Source: Immundisolibacter sp.
GTDB taxonomy: Bacteria > Pseudomonadota > Gammaproteobacteria > Immundisolibacterales > Immundisolibacteraceae
NCBI RefSeq assembly: GCF_014359565.1
Contig: NZ_JACIZD010000014.1
Coordinates: forward strand, 1 to 58,306
Direction of reading: 5' to 3'
Length of the DNA: 58,306 nt
The position numbers and the translations under genes are program-made. The notes under the pieces are model-generated. The model did no database searches. It saw only the letters and a program-made list of their open reading frames with translations, and had not been told where the DNA came from. This document shows positions 13,883-53,364 of this stretch, one piece after another (positions within the stretch are counted from its first letter, which is position 1; every line of letters starts with the position of its first letter).

Positions 13883-15012
13883 CGCTTCCCCAGCAGCCGG
13901 TGCAGCACCGCTTCGTACACGTCCGCCAACTGGTCGATTTCGGTCACTGGCGTGCATTCGTCCACCTTGTGGATGCTGGCGTTGCGCAGGCCAAGCTCGA
14001 TCACCTCGGCGCCGGACGGTGCAATGAAGCGCCCGTCCGAGGTGCCGCCGCCGGTCGAAAGTGTCGGCTCGACGCCCAGTACCTCGCGCAGCGCCGCCTG
14101 CGTCGCCTCCAGCAGACGCCCGCCACGGGTGATGAACGGTTCGCCGCCCAGTGTCCAGTGCACCTCGCAGCGGGCGCCGCCTCGGGCCACGATGCCCTCG
14201 AAGCGGGCCTTGAGCGCCGCCGCGCCGGGCTGCGGCGGGAAGCGGAAGTTACAGTCGACGAGCAGCTCGCCGGGGATGACGTTGCCGGCGCCGGTGCCGG
14301 CGTGGACGTTCGAGATCTGAAAGCTGACGGGCGGGAAGGCCGGATCGTCGCCACCCCAGTCCTCGCTGCACAGCGCGGCCAGCGTCGGCGCGAAGGCGTG
14401 GACGGGATTGAGCGCCTTTTCCGGGTACGCCACGTGACCCTGCACGCCGTGCACGCGCAGGCGCGCCGACAGCGAGCCGCGCCGGCCGATGCGCAGCGTG
14501 TCGCCCAGGCGCTGGTCGCTGGACGGCTCGCCGATCAGGCAGCAGTCGATGGATTCGCCGCGCGCGGTCAGGGTTTCCATGACCCGCACGGTGCCGTCGA
14601 CGGCGTCGCCTTCCTCGTCGCTGGTCAGCAGGAAACCGATCGAGCCTGCGGGGTGCGGGCAGGCCGCCAGGAAGCGCTCGCAGGCCACCACCATTGCCGC
14701 CAATGCGCCTTTCATGTCCGCAGCGCCGCGGCCGTACAGCAGGCCATCGCGGATTTCAGCCGCAAACGGGTCGCAGCACCAAGCGCCTGCATCGCCGACC
14801 GGCACCACGTCCGTATGGCCGGCGAACACGAACAGCGGGCCATCGGTGCCCCGCCTAGCCCACAGGTTGTCGACGGCGCCGAAGCGCATCGGCTCCAGGA
14901 GAAAGCCGAGCCGCGCCAGCCGCTGCCCCAGCAGTTCCTGGCAGCCGCCATCCTGCGGCGTGATCGAGGGGCGGCGGATCAGGGCCTGGGCGAGTTCGAG
15001 CGCCACGCTCAT
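13879..15012 (-). CDS. dapE: Succinyl-diaminopimelate desuccinylase
   Basis: DapE removes succinate from N-succinyl-LL-DAP, a late step in lysine and peptidoglycan precursor synthesis. The 377-residue M20 metallopeptidase shows its metal ligands in order: AGHTDVVPVGD, RGAADMKG, TSDEEGDAVDG, and the terminal histidine of HKVDECTP. The start at 15012 overlaps the yffB stop (ATGA), and its own stop overlaps the start of the L,D-transpeptidase. A minus-strand operon is therefore likely. Confidence 0.97.
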   Translation of the reverse strand: MSVALELAQALIRRPSITPQDGGCQELLGQRLARLGFLLEPMRFGAVDNLWARRGTDGPLFVFAGHTDVVPVGDAGAWCCDPFAAEIRDGLLYGRGAADMKGALAAMVVACERFLAACPHPAGSIGFLLTSDEEGDAVDGTVRVMETLTARGESIDCCLIGEPSSDQRLGDTLRIGRRGSLSARLRVHGVQGHVAYPEKALNPVHAFAPTLAALCSEDWGGDDPAFPPVSFQISNVHAGTGAGNVIPGELLVDCNFRFPPQPGAAALKARFEGIVARGGARCEVHWTLGGEPFITRGGRLLEATQAALREVLGVEPTLSTGGGTSDGRFIAPSGAEVIELGLRNASIHKVDECTPVTEIDQLADVYEAVLHRLLGKR

Positions 15013-28309: not shown

Positions 28310-28644
28310 GGTGCGTCATCCTCGGCCAAGTATCGGAAGGGCAGAATCGTAACTCGCTGTAGCGCTGAATAAATCCATCCGCCGCTTCAAGGGGGCAGCC
28401 CGCCGTAGGCTGGGAGAAGGCTGCCAAGCCGTAACCCATCACCCGGGGCCGGGCGCACGCCTGCCCCTGGCAGTCCGGCTGCGTGTACCTACTCTTGCGA
28501 ATTGGTGGGTTTCGCGGCGCTCTGCCCATCCGACGCGCTGTCCTGCGGGCTGCGGCTCTGATACGGGACTGACGCAGCCCGTTGCGGCAGGTCCTTCCTT
28601 CGCTGGTGCAACCGACGAGGGCCGCTGCAGATCGCGGGGCCCGA
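28310..28644. other. Intergenic stretch with repeat fragments
   Basis: No gene is seen. It contains CGCTGAATAAATCCATCC at 28363-28380, identical to one arm of the five-hairpin element found at 51063-51214. GGTGGGTTTCGC...CCCATCC (about 28505-28535) resembles an imperfect hairpin repeat of a kind common between bacterial genes. It also holds the right 38-bp direct repeat at 28542-28579. The mixture suggests a spot that collects insertions. Confidence 0.5.
28542..28579 (+). repeat. Right 38-bp direct repeat flanking the accessory region
   Basis: This is the partner of 24167-24204, in the same orientation, with about four mismatches. It lies 66 bp beyond the glutathione peroxidase stop codon. 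See the left copy. Confidence 0.6.
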
Positions 28645-44050: not shown

Positions 44051-44521
44051 ATGCCTATTCGTCCAGCACACGTTGCAACAATGCTCGCCGCCGCCCTGCT
44101 GCTGGCGAATGCGCCCGCCGGCGCCGCGCTGTCGGCTGGCGATGCGGCTGCCGTCTTCAAGGCCGCCGGCTTCACCAAGGCTGCCGACGGGCGTTACATC
44201 CGCTGCGTGGAGGAAACGCCGACCGCGTCCTACACGCCAGGGGCGATCGAAGAGGTCGACGTCAACGGCGATGGCCAGCCGGAAGCCTTCGTCACCGAGA
44301 GCAGCATGTTCTGCTACGGCTCGCCGCACACCTTCTTTGGCCTGGTGGCCAAGCGAGCGGGCGGCTGGACCATGCTGCTCGACGACGTCGGCACGCCGGT
44401 GGTGCTCGACACCCGTCGCAGTGGCTGGGCCGATGTCGAGGTCGGCGGCCCCGGCTTCGGGGCGATGCCGGTGTGGCGGTGGAACGGCCAGGCCTACCAA
44501 CGCAAGACGCCCGGCGAGTGA
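44051..44521 (+). CDS. Exported hypothetical protein with Ca-binding-like loop
   Basis: This 156-residue protein has a signal peptide (about 1-27, ending PAGAA). The mature part contains EEVDVNGDGQPEAFVTES, a DxNxDGxxE loop as in FG-GAP/VCBS-type or dockerin-like calcium loops. Two cysteines (C57 region and MFCYG) could form a disulfide. I do not recognise the family. It lies 52 bp after rsmE and before the duplicated SDR tail. Confidence 0.7.
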   Translation: MPIRPAHVATMLAAALLLANAPAGAALSAGDAAAVFKAAGFTKAADGRYIRCVEETPTASYTPGAIEEVDVNGDGQPEAFVTESSMFCYGSPHTFFGLVAKRAGGWTMLLDDVGTPVVLDTRRSGWADVEVGGPGFGAMPVWRWNGQAYQRKTPGE

Positions 44522-44533
44522 CGCCGTCCCGGC

Positions 44534-44657
44534 GCTGCGGAAAACGCTGATTGCGTCAGCGTTTCCCCAAGCCGTAAAGCCGCCGTCGATCGTCAGGCTG
44601 GCGCCGGTGACGAAGCCGGCCTCGGGACTTGCCGGACAGGCGACCATCCCGGCCACT
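44534..44657 (-). pseudogene. Duplicated 3' tail of the SDR gene (left copy)
   Basis: On the minus strand this stretch encodes EAGFVTGASLTIDGGFTA, the same C-terminus as the SDR at 45379-46125. About 124 bp matches 45349-45469 in the same orientation with few differences; 55 bases in a row are identical (44571-44625). The stop codon is lost in this copy. The rest of the gene is missing. A hairpin, GGAAAACGCTGA ... TCAGCGTTTCC (44539-44566), sits at its 3' side. Confidence 0.85.
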
Positions 44658-44948: not shown

Positions 44949-45278
44949 AGGCGAAGCCGATCGTCCCGCGTGAGCAGGCCAACCGGGACATCGACCAAGC
45001 CATCGCGTACTACCTGGCTGAGGATGCCGGGCCGGCAGCGCCTGGATTCATCGACGCCCTGCAGCAGGCCTATGACCACATCGGCCGCCACCCTGCGGAC
45101 CGGCTCGCCCCGCTACGCGCACGAATTGAACCTGCCGGGCCTGCGCTGCTGGCCGCTGACGCGGTATCCCTATCTGGTTTTCCATGTCGAACGGCCCGAC
45201 CACGTCGACGTTTGGCGCGTGCTGCATGCCGGACGCGACATCCCGGCGTGGATGCGCGAGCCCGGCGACACCATTTGA
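44945..45278 (+). pseudogene. ParE-family toxin, frameshifted
   Basis: The GTG at 44945 starts KAKPIVPREQANRDIDQAIAY and runs in frame to IGRHPAD (about 45099). The rest of a ParE toxin, GSPRYAHELNLPGLRCWPL and YLVFHVERPDHVDVWRVLH, continues in the +1 frame to a TGA at 45276-45278. One extra G at about 45097-45098 (CTGCGGACC) explains it. Either the toxin is dead or the sequence has an error here. The antitoxin gene is intact. Confidence 0.85.
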
Positions 45279-45310
45279 CGGGCGGTCCGCTCACAAACAG
45301 GCGAGGCTTC

Positions 45311-45379
45311 CTGACCTGTAGCCGCCGATTGTGGCAGCGCATCCCTTGGCTGCGGGAAACGCTGATTGCGTCAGTGTTC
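45311..45379 (-). repeat. Partial copy of the five-hairpin element
   Basis: On the plus strand GGCAGCGCATCCCTTGGCTGCGGG and AAACGCTGA (45333-45366) match the reverse strand of the element at 51063-51214. The preceding TAGCCGCCGATTGTG matches the next arm. The copy ends at the SDR stop codon with the hairpin GGAAACGCTGA/TCAGTGTT. It is truncated relative to 51063-51214. Longest shared runs are under 20 bases each. Confidence 0.7.
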
Positions 45380-45469
45380 TAGGCCGTAAAGCCGCCGTCG
45401 ATCGTCAGGCTGGCGCCGGTGACGAAGCCGGCCTCGGCGCTTGCAAGATACGCGACCATGCCGGCCACT
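45349..45469 (+). repeat. Right direct repeat (3' end of the SDR gene)
   Basis: This is the right-hand counterpart of 44534-44657, 815 bp away and in the same orientation. It includes the true C-terminus and TAG stop of the SDR gene and the hairpin just beyond. The two copies enclose the ParDE module. Confidence 0.85.
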
Positions 45470-48303: not shown

Positions 48304-49089
48304 ATGTTGCACCATCCCGCCATCGATCCGGTCGCCCTGCACCTTGGCCCACTGGCCATCCGCTGGTATGGCCTCATGTACCTGGTCGGTTTCGCGGCCG
48401 CCTGGTGGCTGGGTCGAAGGCGCGCGCAGCGCCCCGGCAGCGGCTGGCAGGCGAGCGAGCTCGGCGACCTGATTTTCTACTGCGCCATGGGCGCCGTGCT
48501 CGGCGGGCGCATCGGCTATGTGCTGTTCTATCAGCCCGCTTACTACCTGTCTCATCCGGCAGCCATCCTGCAGGCCTGGGAGGGCGGCATGTCCTTCCAC
48601 GGCGGGCTGATCGGCGTGCTGTTGGCGTGCTGGCTGTTCGGGCGCAAGACCGGCCGCGGTTTCTTCACGGTGACCGATTTTGCGGCGCCGCTGGTGCCGA
48701 CCGGGCTGCTGGCCGGGCGGCTTGGCAACTTCATCAACGGCGAGCTGTGGGGGCGGGTCACGGACCTGCCCTGGGGCATGGTGTTCGAGGGCGCCGGGCC
48801 GCTGCCGCGCCATCCATCGCAGCTTTATCAGGCGGCGCTCGAAGGCGGGCTGCTGTTCGTCATCCTGTGGCTGTATTCGGCCCGGCCACGGCCGGTGATG
48901 GCGGTGTCCGGGGTGTTTCTGATCGGCTACGGCACGCTGCGTTTCATCGGTGAATTCGCGCGTGAGCCGGATGCCTTTCTGGGCTTCGTCGCCTTCGACT
49001 GGCTGACCATGGGTCAGCTGCTGTGCCTGCCGATGTTGGTCGCGGGAGCGGCGCTGCTGATGCTCAGTCGTCGGCACAGCGCGGCCTGA
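48304..49089 (+). CDS. lgt: Phosphatidylglycerol-prolipoprotein diacylglyceryl transferase
   Basis: Lgt adds diacylglycerol to the lipobox cysteine of prolipoproteins such as the BamC and L,D-transpeptidase products encoded here. The 261-residue inner-membrane protein has seven predicted membrane segments. It shows [20 protein letters not shown], the Lgt signature [14 protein letters not shown], and [15 protein letters not shown] at 48298 is an alternative start two codons earlier. The stop overlaps the next start by one base. Confidence 0.96.
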
Positions 49090-51062
49090 TGCACGGCTTC
49101 TTTGCCGAACTGGTCATCATCCTCACCGCCTCGGCGCTGGTGCTGGCGGCGTTCTACCGCCTGCGCCTGCCGCCCACGCTGGGCTATCTGACCACCGGCC
49201 TGCTGATCGGGCCCGGTGCGCTCGGTCTGGTGGGCAACCAGGAGGCGGTGCAGTACCTGGCCGAGTTCGGTGTGGTGTTCCTGCTGTTCTCGCTGGGTCT
49301 GGAATTTTCGCTGTCGCGCCTGCTGGCCATGCGCCGGCTGGTGTTTGGCCTGGGCGGCGGGCAGGTGCTGATCTGCACGGCGGCGTTCATGGCGGTCGGG
49401 CTCGGGTTTGGACTGTCGCCGCCGCTGGCACTGCTGATGGCGGCGGTGCTGGCGCTGTCGTCCACCGCGGTGGTGACGCGCGAGCTGGCCCGCAACGGCG
49501 AGCTGTACGCCCGCCACGGCCAGCTCGGCGTCGCGGTGCTGCTGTTTCAGGATCTGGCGGCCGTGCTGTTCCTGATTCTGATCCCGGCCCTGGCCACCGA
49601 GGGCGATGGCCTGCCGCTGGTGCTCGCCATTACTGTCGCCAAGGGCCTGGTGCTGTTCGCGGCGCTGATCGGCATCGGCAAGTGGGTGCTGCCGCGGGTG
49701 TTCTTCGAGGTCGCCAAGACGCATTCGGATGAGCTGTTCGTGCTCGCCGCGTTGCTGGTGGCCCTGCTCGCCGCGCTGCTGACGGACGCGTTTGGCCTGT
49801 CGATGACGCTGGGCGCCTTCATCGCCGGCATGATGCTCGGCGAGAGCCATTTCCGGCACCGCATCGAGGTCGAGATCCGGCCGTTTCGGGATGTGCTGCT
49901 GGGCATTTTCTTCGTCAGTGTCGGCATGTTGCTGGTGCCGGCGCAGCTGCTGCCGCGCTGGCCGGCGCTGCTGGGCCTGACGGCGGCCCTGCTGGTGTTC
50001 AAGACGGTCATTGTGATGGTGCTGGGGCGTTGGCTGGGCGAGGACCGGCTGACTTCGCTGCGCGCGGCGCTGCTGTTGGCACAGGGCGGTGAATTCGGCT
50101 TTGCCCTGCTGGCGGTGGCCGGTACCTACCGCTTGATCGACCCCGGCCAGGCCACGCTGGTGGCCGCCAGCATCGTGCTGAGCATGGGACTGACGCCGCT
50201 GATCGTGCGTCACAACGGTCGCATCGCCGCCTGGTTTTTGCGGCACCACCACCCGCTGCCCGCCGCGCAGGCCGATCTTGTCGACGTGAGCGGCGCCACC
50301 GGCGCGCTGAGCGGTCACGTCGTCATTTGCGGCTACGGGCGCGTCGGCCAGGCGGTGGGGCGCATCCTGAGCCGCGAGGGCGTCGCGTTCGTCGCCGTGG
50401 ACGAAGACCCGGTGCGCGTGCAGGAGGCCCTGCTGGGCGGCGAGAACGTGTTCTATGGTGACGCCCGCCGACCTGCGCTGTTGCATGCGCTTGGTATCGC
50501 TCGGGCGCGTCTGGTGGTGGTGAGCTTCACCGACCACCGGCAGGCGCTGGCCATCGTGCGGGCGGTGCGCGAGCTGGCCCCCGAGCTGCCGATCCTGGTG
50601 CGCACCACCGATGACCGCCACCGGGACATTCTGAAGCAGGCCGGCGTGACCGCCGTGGTGCCGGAAACCTTCGAGGCCAGCCTGACGCTGGCCTCGCACG
50701 TGCTGGCGCTGCTCGATTTCCCGATGGAGCGGGTACAGCAAAGCGTGCAGGGCGTGCGCGAGGAGCGTTACGGCGTGCTGCGCGGCTATTTTCACGGTCA
50801 GCGCTCGCGCATCGAGGACACGCAGGGCCAGGCCCTCGAAGTGCGCCACGCCGTGCGCCTGCCCGACGATGCGCGCGCGGTCGGCCAGCGCCTGGACGAG
50901 CTGGATCTGGCCCGGACCGGCGCCGAGGTGCGCAGCGTGCGCCGCGGTGCAGGCGAACTGACGCCGGCCGATGACTTGCGTCTGCAGGCCGGCGACGCGG
51001 TGGTGTTGTTTGGCACTGCCAGCCAGGTGGAGAACGCGGAAAGACGCCTGCTGGGCGGTTAG
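49089..51062 (+). CDS. CPA2 cation:proton antiporter with RCK domain (KefB/YbaL-like)
   Basis: This 657-residue protein has about 12 membrane helices (1-385) of the Na/H-exchanger type, a TrkA-N/RCK domain (about 415-535, [19 protein letters not shown]) that binds NAD(H), and a C-terminal TrkA-C region ending [32 protein letters not shown] corresponds to the conserved transport aspartate. It probably exports K+ or Na+ against protons. KefB, KefC and YbaL are not separable here; no KefF/G gene adjoins. Confidence 0.92.
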
Positions 51063-51214
51063 GGAAAGGCTGAAGTATTCAGCGTTTCCCGCAGCGCAGG
51101 GATGCGCTGCCAAAATCAGTGGCTATAAGCCGCTGATTTTGTGAGCCATCGGAAAACCACGCTTTTCCGATGGCGGGCGCTGAGAAATCCAGGATGGATT
51201 TATTCAGCGTTTCC
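51063..51214. mobile_element. Five-hairpin repeat element (MITE-like)
   Basis: The 152-bp element has terminal inverted repeats GGAAAGGCTGAA (51063-51074) and TTCAGCGTTTCC (51203-51214). It consists of five adjoining hairpins: 51063-51089; 51091-51110 (GCAGCGCA/TGCGCTGC); 51112-51140 (AAAATCAG/CTGATTTT); 51145-51174 (GCCATCGGAAAA/TTTTCCGATGGC); 51178-51209. No reading frame of note. Related pieces lie at 45311-45379, 44534-44566 and 28363-28380. It starts directly after a stop codon. Confidence 0.7.
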
Positions 51215-51360
51215 TCGGGGCGCACCGGGCGCGCCTTGTGGTCGGGGTGACCTGCCCCTGCAAGCGGCGCTCGGGCTGCGTTATCCTTGCCGCCCCCCGC
51301 GGCCGGCGGGTGTCCGTCTGCCGGTCTCCTGCCGATTTTGGTCCCGATCCGGAGAACTGT

Positions 51361-53364
51361 ATGTCCCTGCCGCGCCGGCAACTTGCCAACGCCGTCCGGG
51401 CGCTGGCCATGGACGCGGTAGAGGCCGCCAAGTCCGGCCACCCCGGCATGCCGATGGGCATGGCTGACATCGCCGAAGTCCTGTGGAACGACCTGCTGCG
51501 CCACAACCCGGCCGACCCGGCCTGGCCGGACCGCGACCGCTTCGTGGTCTCCAACGGCCACGGCTCGATGCTGCTGTACGCGCTGCTGCACCTGAGCGGC
51601 TATGACCTGCCGCTGGATGAGCTCAAGCGCTTCCGGCAGCTGCACTCCAAAACCCCCGGCCATCCCGAGTACGGCCTGACGCCGGGCGTGGAGACCACGA
51701 CCGGGCCGCTGGGTCAGGGCCTGGCCAACGCGGTCGGCATGGCGATCGCCGAACGGCGGCTGGCGGCGGAGTTCAACCGGCCCGGCCATGCCATCGTCGA
51801 TCACCACACCTACGTGTTCGTCGGCGACGGTTGCCTGATGGAAGGTGTCTCGCACGAGGCCTGCTCAGTGGCCGGCACGCTGGGCCTGGGCAAGCTGATC
51901 GCGCTGTACGACGACAACGGCATCTCCATCGACGGTCAGGTCAGCGGCTGGTTTGCCGACGACACGCCGGCCCGCTTCGAGGCCTACGGCTGGCAGGTGA
52001 TCCGCGACGTGGACGGCCATGATGCCGCTGCGGTCGCCGCCGCCCTGCAACAGGCGCGGGCCGAGACCGCCAGACCCACACTCATCTGCTGCCGCACGGT
52101 GATCGGTTTCGGGGCGCCCAACAAGCAGGGCAAGGCGTCGGCGCATGGCGCGCCGCTGGGTGGCGACGAAATCGCCGCGGCGCGCGCGCAGCTGGGCTGG
52201 ACCTGCGGTCCGTTCGAGATTCCGGCTGACATCTATGCCGCCTGGGACGCCCGGCCACGGGGCGCCGCGCTGCAAGTCGACTGGCAGGACCGCTTCGATC
52301 GCTATGCGGACGAGTACCCCACACTGGCGGCGGAATTCCGGCGGCGCATGGCCGGCCTGCTGCCGGCTGATTTCGAGGCACAGGCACAAGCCATCGTGGC
52401 CCGTTTTCAGGCCGACGCGAAGGACGTCGCCAGCCGCCAGGCCTCGCAACTGGCACTCGAAGCCTTCGGTCCGCTGCTGCCGGAGTTTCTGGGTGGCTCG
52501 GCCGACCTGACAGAATCGAACCTCACCGACTGGTCCGGCGCCACCCGGCTGGACGCAGCCAATCCGGGTGGCGACTACCTGCACTACGGCGTGCGTGAGT
52601 TCGGCATGACCGCGATCATGAACGGCATCGCCCTGCACGGCGGCTTGCTGCCGTATGGCGGTACCTTTCTGGTGTTCTCGGATTACGCCCGCAACGGCAT
52701 CCGGATGGCGGCGCTCATGGGCCTGCGGGTGACCTATGTGCTGACACACGATTCGATCGGCCTGGGCGAGGACGGCCCCACCCACCAGCCGGTGGAGCAT
52801 GTGTCCAGCCTGCGACTGGTGCCGGGTCTGAGCGTGTGGCGGCCGTGCGATGCGGCCGAGACCGCCGCTGCCTGGGCACAGGCTTTGACGGCCGAGGGGC
52901 CGAGTGCGCTCGCCCTGTCGCGCCAGAAGCTGCCGCATCAGGCGCGCGATGCCGGGCAACTGGCAGCGGTCGAGCGGGGCGGCTACGTGCTGGCGGACAC
53001 GCCGAGCGCGCCGGACCTGATCCTCATGGCCAGCGGCTCGGAGGTGGCGCTGGTGATGGCGGCGCGCGAGCGGCTGGCCAGTGAGGGCATTGCGGCGCGT
53101 GTGGTGTCCATGCCGTGCCTGGAGCGTTTCGCGGCGCAGGACGCGGGCTACCGTGACAGCGTGCTGCCGCCGGCGGTGACGGCGCGGGTGGCCGTGGAGG
53201 CGGGCGTGACGGGGCTTTGGTGGCGTTACGTGGGTGATTGCGGTCAGGTGATCGGCCTGGACCGCTTCGGCGAATCGGCGCCGGCCGGGGCGCTGTTCGA
53301 GTATTTCGGATTCACGCCCGAGGCCGTGATAGCCGCGGCGCGGGCGACGCTGCAAAGGGGCTGA
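51361..53364 (+). CDS. tkt: Transketolase
   Basis: This thiamine-diphosphate enzyme transfers two-carbon units between sugar phosphates in the pentose phosphate or Calvin pathways. The 667-residue length is normal. It has [14 protein letters not shown], the ThDP/Mg motif [13 protein letters not shown]...DDNGISIDG, and the transketolase signature [19 protein letters not shown]. It begins the group tkt-gap-pgk, the usual order in proteobacteria. A TTATCCT -10-like box lies about 75 bp before the start. Confidence 0.97.

Follow-up and report, generated by a model that had tools for sequence, protein, structure and literature searches.

A mobile 152-bp hairpin element of Immundisolibacter with a likely CsrA-type RNA module resembling RsmW

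The stretch of DNA analysed here, referred to as the window, is the 58,306-nucleotide sequence of contig NZ_JACIZD010000014.1 from Immundisolibacter sp. (positions 1–58,306, forward strand). A 152-bp element composed of hairpins is located between the genes for an antiporter and a transketolase. The top NCBIfam model for the antiporter is KefC, with a score under the cut-off of that model. The features of the locus and the related pieces elsewhere in the window are as follows.

49023–51062, + strand: upstream gene, KefC/KefB-like CPA2 antiporter with TrkA-N/TrkA-C domains (Pfam PF00999, PF02254, PF02080)
51059–51062, no strand: left target site TTAG with the antiporter stop TAG inside (sequence; target-duplication statistics of the family; orthologous stop in genome G002)
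51063–51214, + strand: full-length element of 152 bp, the GGA-loop strand being + (covariance model R1, 174.9 bits, E 7.5e-48 over the window; BLAST and covariance-model families)
51063–51089, + strand: hairpin H1, the left terminal repeat and its own inverted copy (sequence, folding, covariation)
51091–51110, + strand: hairpin H2, GCAGCGC[AGGGAU]GCGCUGC, first GGA loop with GGA at 51100–51102
51111–51141, + strand: hairpin H3, 12-bp stem and loop CTATAAG (family consensus C..AAG)
51145–51174, + strand: hairpin H4, 12-bp stem and loop CCACGC (YCRCR in the family, with T-A/C-G covariation between bases 1 and 5 of the loop)
51177–51214, + strand: hairpin H5, inner stem with the second GGA loop CCAGGAUGG, GGA at 51192–51194
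51361–53364, + strand: downstream gene, transketolase (Pfam PF00456, E 1.5e-161)
45250–45381, − strand: degraded copy, H1–H2 and part of H3 discernible (covariance model, E 4.5e-6)
44445–44566, − strand: degraded copy, H1–H2 discernible (covariance model, E 5e-5)
28358–28380, + strand: right-end fragment TGTAGCGCTGAATAAATCCATCC (terminal-repeat pattern search, 2 mismatches; 0 matches of the reversed control pattern)

The initial annotation of this DNA described the element as five consecutive hairpins, which is confirmed by folding. The + strand with its flanks has a z-score of −8.6 relative to dinucleotide shuffles and the − strand of the element one of −10.2, with none of 200 shuffles as good in either case. 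The hairpins are separated by no more than 0–3 nucleotides (C at 51090, nothing between H2 and H3, TGA at 51142–51144, and GG at 51175–51176). The reported terminal inverted repeat, GGAAAGGCTGAA/TTCAGCGTTTCC, is real and corresponds to the two arms of H1, one of which is mutated in the window copy (C to G at 51068). The same terminal repeat forms the right end of the element, finishing in TTCAGCGTTTCC at 51203–51214, where the outer stem of H5 is built from terminal-repeat sequence and is followed by the terminal TTCC. Because the element closes with its terminal repeat, the inverted repeat truly delimits the entire element. The element begins at the antiporter stop codon, the TAG of which belongs to the target site TTAG; the right copy of the target, expected at 51215–51218, has decayed and now reads TCGG.

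The element belongs to a repeat family that moves or is copied, as had been proposed from pieces of it seen elsewhere in the window; these pieces are genuine but degraded. The covariance model R1, derived from 30 copies in six genomes, identified 45 distinct places in the Immundisolibacter genome at E < 0.01, about eight of them near full length, so that copies exist outside the window. A BLAST search of the same genome returned 47 matches at E ≤ 1e-5, of which eight are long. Matches were found in 69 of 369 genomes of the class sample, reaching E 1e-42 outside the genus, and the majority of the class matches listed are full length (model positions 1–152), with a total length of about 149–153 bp. 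The phylum sample contained matches in 44 of 398 genomes, most of them belonging to other classes. According to the genome records, the hosts include Thioalkalivibrio, Halothiobacillus, Sedimenticola, Ca. Tenderia, and an Olavius algarvensis endosymbiont. Searches of plasmid and phage collections and of viral contigs yielded no match to the element.

The suggestion that the element is a MITE is close to certain. Copies of the main type start with GGAARCKCTGA and finish with its inverse. A perfect 4-bp direct repeat borders 38 of the 83 main-type copies with readable flanks, compared with 0–2 at shifted control positions, and 30 of these 38 duplications are YTAR (TTAA, CTAG, TTAG, CTAA). An intact 1220-bp insertion sequence (IS) is present in 11 identical copies in the sister genome G002; its ends are GGAAACGCTGAT..ATCAGCGTTTCC and its target duplications CTAG, CTAA, TTAG, and TTAA. 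The terminal inverted repeat (TIR) of the element, GGAAACGCTGAT, is identical to that of this autonomous IS, the transposase of which belongs to the IS5 family (NF033581, 325.7 bits with a cut-off of 140; DDE_Tnp_1 and DUF772 domains). No intact IS with matching ends was identified in the genome from which the window originates. A corresponding pair occurs in genome G309, where an IS5-type IS with the TIR GGAACCTCTGATTAATT (GGAACCTCTGAT) matches the MITE ends of that genome. The orthologous kefC–transketolase spacer of G002 lacks the element; the stop reads GGTTAG with the target TTAG present, and the remaining spacer is diverged. The features of an IS5-family MITE that were examined, namely a short non-coding sequence with a TIR in common with an autonomous IS, a 4-bp YTAR target duplication in the family, and an empty orthologous site, are present.

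Tandem insertions of the element and an IS with a common target duplication also occur. At three loci (L332 and L344 of G132, L084 of G002) the element directly adjoins an IS5-family IS, with one YTAR duplication common to both. Such pairs look as though each insertion makes the next target.

The element is more than a decayed transposon. Both sides have changed in 26 of the 56 base pairs of the 30-copy alignment, and 158 cells are doubly compensated, as against 49 ± 5 in shuffled alignments and no more than 42 after sliding of the partner; the proportion of paired cells is 94%, and falls to 35–46% upon sliding. Among 74 non-redundant copies the stems vary freely and the loops do not. The H2 loop was counted in 47 non-redundant copies found by covariance model with no selection for the loop, 45 of which have six-base loops. 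The loop is ANGGAN in 40 of these 45: positions 1, 3, 4, and 5 are A, G, G, and A in 42–44 of them, and all four bases occur at positions 2 and 6. AC/GU closes the H2 loop in 35 of the 47 copies. GGA is also present at the apex of H5, in an NGGAN loop, in 66 of the 74 copies. The loop of H3 ends with AAG in 40 of 74, and that of H4 is YCRCR in 54 of 74, its bases 1 and 5 covarying (31 T-A, 23 C-G, one T-G, and no C-A).

The CsrA site selected by SELEX is RUACARGGAUGU, a hexaloop closed by AC/GU (reviewed in PMC7652899). An ANGGAN hexaloop with AC/GU closure is the recognition hairpin of CsrA/RsmA. The CsrA dimer binds two such GGA hairpins. Hairpins H2–H5 are quite likely to constitute a conserved RNA module of the CsrA type.

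The stems of the per-genome consensuses are almost purely Watson-Crick, with 22 G-T and 8 A-C pairs among 1410, and the excess of G-T over A-C is therefore only 22:8 (p 0.016), which is weak support for an RNA strand. The excess of 104:22 among the best-scoring copies has been rejected as decisive evidence for RNA: it is inflated by the choice of copies, which were the top scorers under a model favouring G-U, it shrinks to 22:8 in the consensuses, and recent decay is symmetric. Single changes in copies from the genus comprise 67 G-T and 61 A-C, and the GGA loops of individual copies have changed at about the rate of the stems, so that some copies lose GGA. The loss of GGA loops and the symmetric decay indicate that selection does not act on most copies once they have inserted. 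Therefore, any selection on the RNA acts on the spreading source and not on each copy.

Differences from the consensus within genomes were counted separately; they include 208 cells with two compensating changes and 143 single changes at the same pairs. The excess of compensating pairs may result from templated palindrome correction or from mixed subfamilies.

An Rfam scan of 12 family members, chosen with no prior selection for RsmW, returned RsmW (RF02809) as the top match, with 44.1 bits (E 2.2e-5) and 41.7 bits (E 6.7e-5). The matches span the full model (1–124 of 124) on the GGA strand, and RsmW's four hairpins fall on H2, H3, H4, and H5 in register; the element and RsmW agree in the order of their hairpins and in having exposed loops with GGA. 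Four more copies from the same two genomes (G318 and G389) scored 39.2, 35.9, 37.0, and 36.1 bits. The gathering score of RF02809, 52, was not reached by the best match, 44.1 bits in a relative; the scan of the window copy gave neither an RsmW match nor any other meaningful one, and a further scan of eight loci did not match RsmW. Because of the scores below the cut-off and the lack of a match for the window copy, the element is termed RsmW-like and not a member of that family. A search of plasmids for RsmW itself found nothing.

RsmW of Pseudomonas aeruginosa (RF02809, clan CL00106) resembles the element in having four hairpins in the same order with GGA in the first and last loops, an origin in a 3′ UTR, no promoter of its own, and a length of about 120–126 nucleotides. 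It binds RsmA with a Kd of about 11.5 nM and is released by cleavage of a 3′ UTR, having no dedicated promoter (PMC4950607). The published description of RsmW is of one locus with no homology to the Rsm RNAs known before it (PMC4950607), whereas the core of the element is multicopy, occurs in many families, and lies between terminal repeats and target duplications. It is plausible that RsmW is a domesticated member of the family. The host encodes CsrA. CsrA (PF02599) was detected in 61 of the 69 element-bearing genomes and in 252 of the 300 others of the 369-genome sample, and this co-occurrence carries no information, CsrA being nearly universal in the sample; some of the 8 element-bearing genomes without a CsrA match are incomplete.

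The core H2–H5 is not confined to one set of ends. Three TIR sets were distinguished: GGAARCKCTGA with a 4-bp YTAR duplication, GAGGGTGTCGCAAAA with a 5-bp duplication, and CAGGNTGTTGAAAAA with a 4-bp duplication. The duplications of the latter two classes, read by eye from the flanks, are TCTTA, TCGAA, TGAAA, and TTTGA (L155, L258, L186, and L185) for GAGGGTGTCGCAAAA and, for example, TTAA, CTAG, CTAA, and TTAC (L244, L260, L215, and L273) for CAGGNTGTTGAAAAA. In each class the sequence of the new terminal repeat makes up H1 and the outer stem of H5. By contrast, the order, spacing, and near-constant length (149–153 bp) of hairpins 2–5 are held across distant families. Parent ISs of the GAGGGTGTCGCAAAA and CAGGNTGTTGAAAAA classes were not found in the DNA searched, and the swap of TIRs is therefore deduced from the ends and duplications of the elements themselves.

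Copies lie at a median of 16–19 nucleotides from the 3′ ends of genes, and their arrangement is therefore the same as that of RsmW; 47 are positioned between convergent gene pairs and 21 between divergent ones. Neither a sigma-70-like promoter for the element nor a U-run terminator at its end was found. An orientation bias, considered as evidence for a cis role in 3′ UTRs, was discarded because it is not significant: between co-directional genes 45 copies are sense and 34 antisense to transcription (p 0.26).

The best explanation, which we regard as probable, is that the element is a transposase-mobilised CsrA-binding RNA of the RsmW type, usually inserted immediately downstream of a stop codon and expressed by transcriptional read-through. 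The initial annotation had offered, as the alternative to a MITE, a structured RNA that ends the antiporter transcript; the evidence favours both, and covariation above the controls, the conserved loops, and the RsmW matches in relatives speak for the RNA. In the proposed mechanism, the element would insert next to stop codons, and read-through from the upstream gene would transcribe it. The RNA might be released from the 3′ UTR by processing, a route reported for RsmW, and would offer two GGA hairpins to a CsrA dimer, the copies together forming a distributed sink for CsrA. The weakest step is that the property of the RNA would aid the persistence or spread of the element; the benefit could be, for example, a relief of CsrA repression on the translation of transposase, or insertions made harmless. 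That the RNA of the window copy is expressed is an inference, and its binding of CsrA is proposed by analogy with RsmW. A functional CsrA sponge in vivo is plausible, with the prospects for and against about balanced. The findings suggest that a regulatory RNA has spread around genomes as a jumping element. A wider reading, more tentative and to our judgement somewhat short of an even chance, is that of a phylum-wide selfish element with a CsrA/RsmA sponge as payload, at least three TIR sets, and an RNA selected at the level of lineages, from which RsmW would have been domesticated.

The strongest competing explanation is an ordinary IS5-derived MITE, in which palindromes would be kept at the DNA level by templated strand-switch correction in replication and the loops would appear conserved owing to recent sources. 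It is in keeping with the clear MITE hallmarks, with consensus stems that are about 96% Watson-Crick and contain few G-T pairs, with the double-sided changes in 208 cells within single genomes, and with the absence of an orientation bias. We nevertheless consider it unlikely, because the GGA loops are kept while the adjoining stems turn over completely between families, and the variable loop positions, 2 and 6, are those that proteins of the CsrA family ignore. Furthermore, one loop rule is common to two separate hairpins, the order, spacing, and total length are constant across the phylum and three TIR sets, and relatives match RsmW.

The location behind stop codons and the preponderance of convergent over divergent settings would also fit a REP/BIME-like stabiliser of 3′ UTRs or a transcription insulator protecting upstream mRNAs, as would the very stable hairpins on both strands. 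This is improbable to a higher degree: the GGA loops and the RsmW match would be left unexplained, the end of the element is without a U-run terminator, and the YTAR target favours stop codons by itself. REP/BIME sequences are palindromes of 20–40 bp with a GTAG or CGTC tag and a RAYT partner; the 152-bp element lacks such a tag, and it was not assigned to them. A GTAG-type REP pair is present only as a secondary insert in a long subtype. DDE transposases of the IS5 family act on double-stranded ends. A structured single-stranded DNA element, the + strand hairpins of which would be recognised during replication or transposition, is very improbable, even though the loops of one strand are conserved and the G-T excess over A-C (in the consensuses and in the best-scoring copies) fits it too, because the transposase is such a DDE enzyme, no tyrosine or HUH enzyme is linked to these ends here, and the loop rule fits an RNA-binding protein.

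In its terminal repeat GGAARCKCTGA.. and 4-bp YTAR duplication, the element agrees with IS5-family ISs (NF033581, DDE_Tnp_1/DUF772) and their MITEs; its interior differs from that of the IS, being a conserved four-hairpin RNA module and no deletion derivative. QMITE1 and QMITE2 of Coxiella burnetii are likewise bacterial MITEs that give small RNAs, and a GTAG REP is found in QMITE2 (PMC5896051) as well as in the long subtype of the element. They differ in size, TIRs, and target duplications (7–11 nucleotides for QMITE2), and a conservation of CsrA-type loops is unreported for them (PMC5896051). CsrB, RsmX/Y/Z, and Xanthomonas RsmU, which is also derived from a 3′ UTR, share with the element the GGA hairpins that serve as decoys for CsrA/RsmA (PMC7694677); unlike it, they are chromosomal host genes for which transposon ends are unreported. 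A survey of 50 bacterial genomes describes 250 structured motifs that are multicopy and inconsistently oriented relative to genes, among which the element would fit, and MRSC-65-2, which, as described there, differs from it in being a single structure with UYCCGG repeats (PMC11109978). In the open-access literature searched, a CsrA-binding transposable element is not reported, and the 250 unnamed motifs of the survey (PMC11109978) could contain it. Literature searches with literal element sequences gave chance matches only.

If the preferred reading of a transposase-mobilised CsrA-binding RNA is true, the global post-transcriptional regulator CsrA/RsmA faces a sponge that multiplies by transposition, and transposon load would be linked to the control of metabolism, motility, and biofilms. 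It would explain the origin of orphan Rsm RNAs derived from 3′ UTRs, such as RsmW, and would provide a rare transposable element conserved for RNA structure and not for protein. The element also raises the testable question of whether host RNA regulators are used by elements for their own spread.

Several variants of the element have been observed. A long subtype of about 205 bp, found in the genus of the window, has a GTAG-type REP pair (GTGGGAGCCCGGCTGCGCCGGGCGATCATCGCGCAGCGAAGCTGCGCTCCCAC) within the loop of hairpin 4; seven copies (L062, L063, L064, L056, L011, L015, and L016) have the pair at an identical place, which makes it a repeat nested in a mobile element. Three genomes of one family (G154, G265, and G360 of f149; L212) contain a related element with 30–53 matches per genome, a different middle part, and the terminal repeats GGAAGCCCTGA / TCAGAGTTTCC. 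On contig C1 of genome G026 the element is repeated head to tail about every 124 bp in four arrays (13925–14320, 1949019–1949290, 2150446–2150713, and 2569128–2569398), in which one end palindrome is common to both neighbours. Such arrays would put many GGA hairpins into one transcript, like CsrB.
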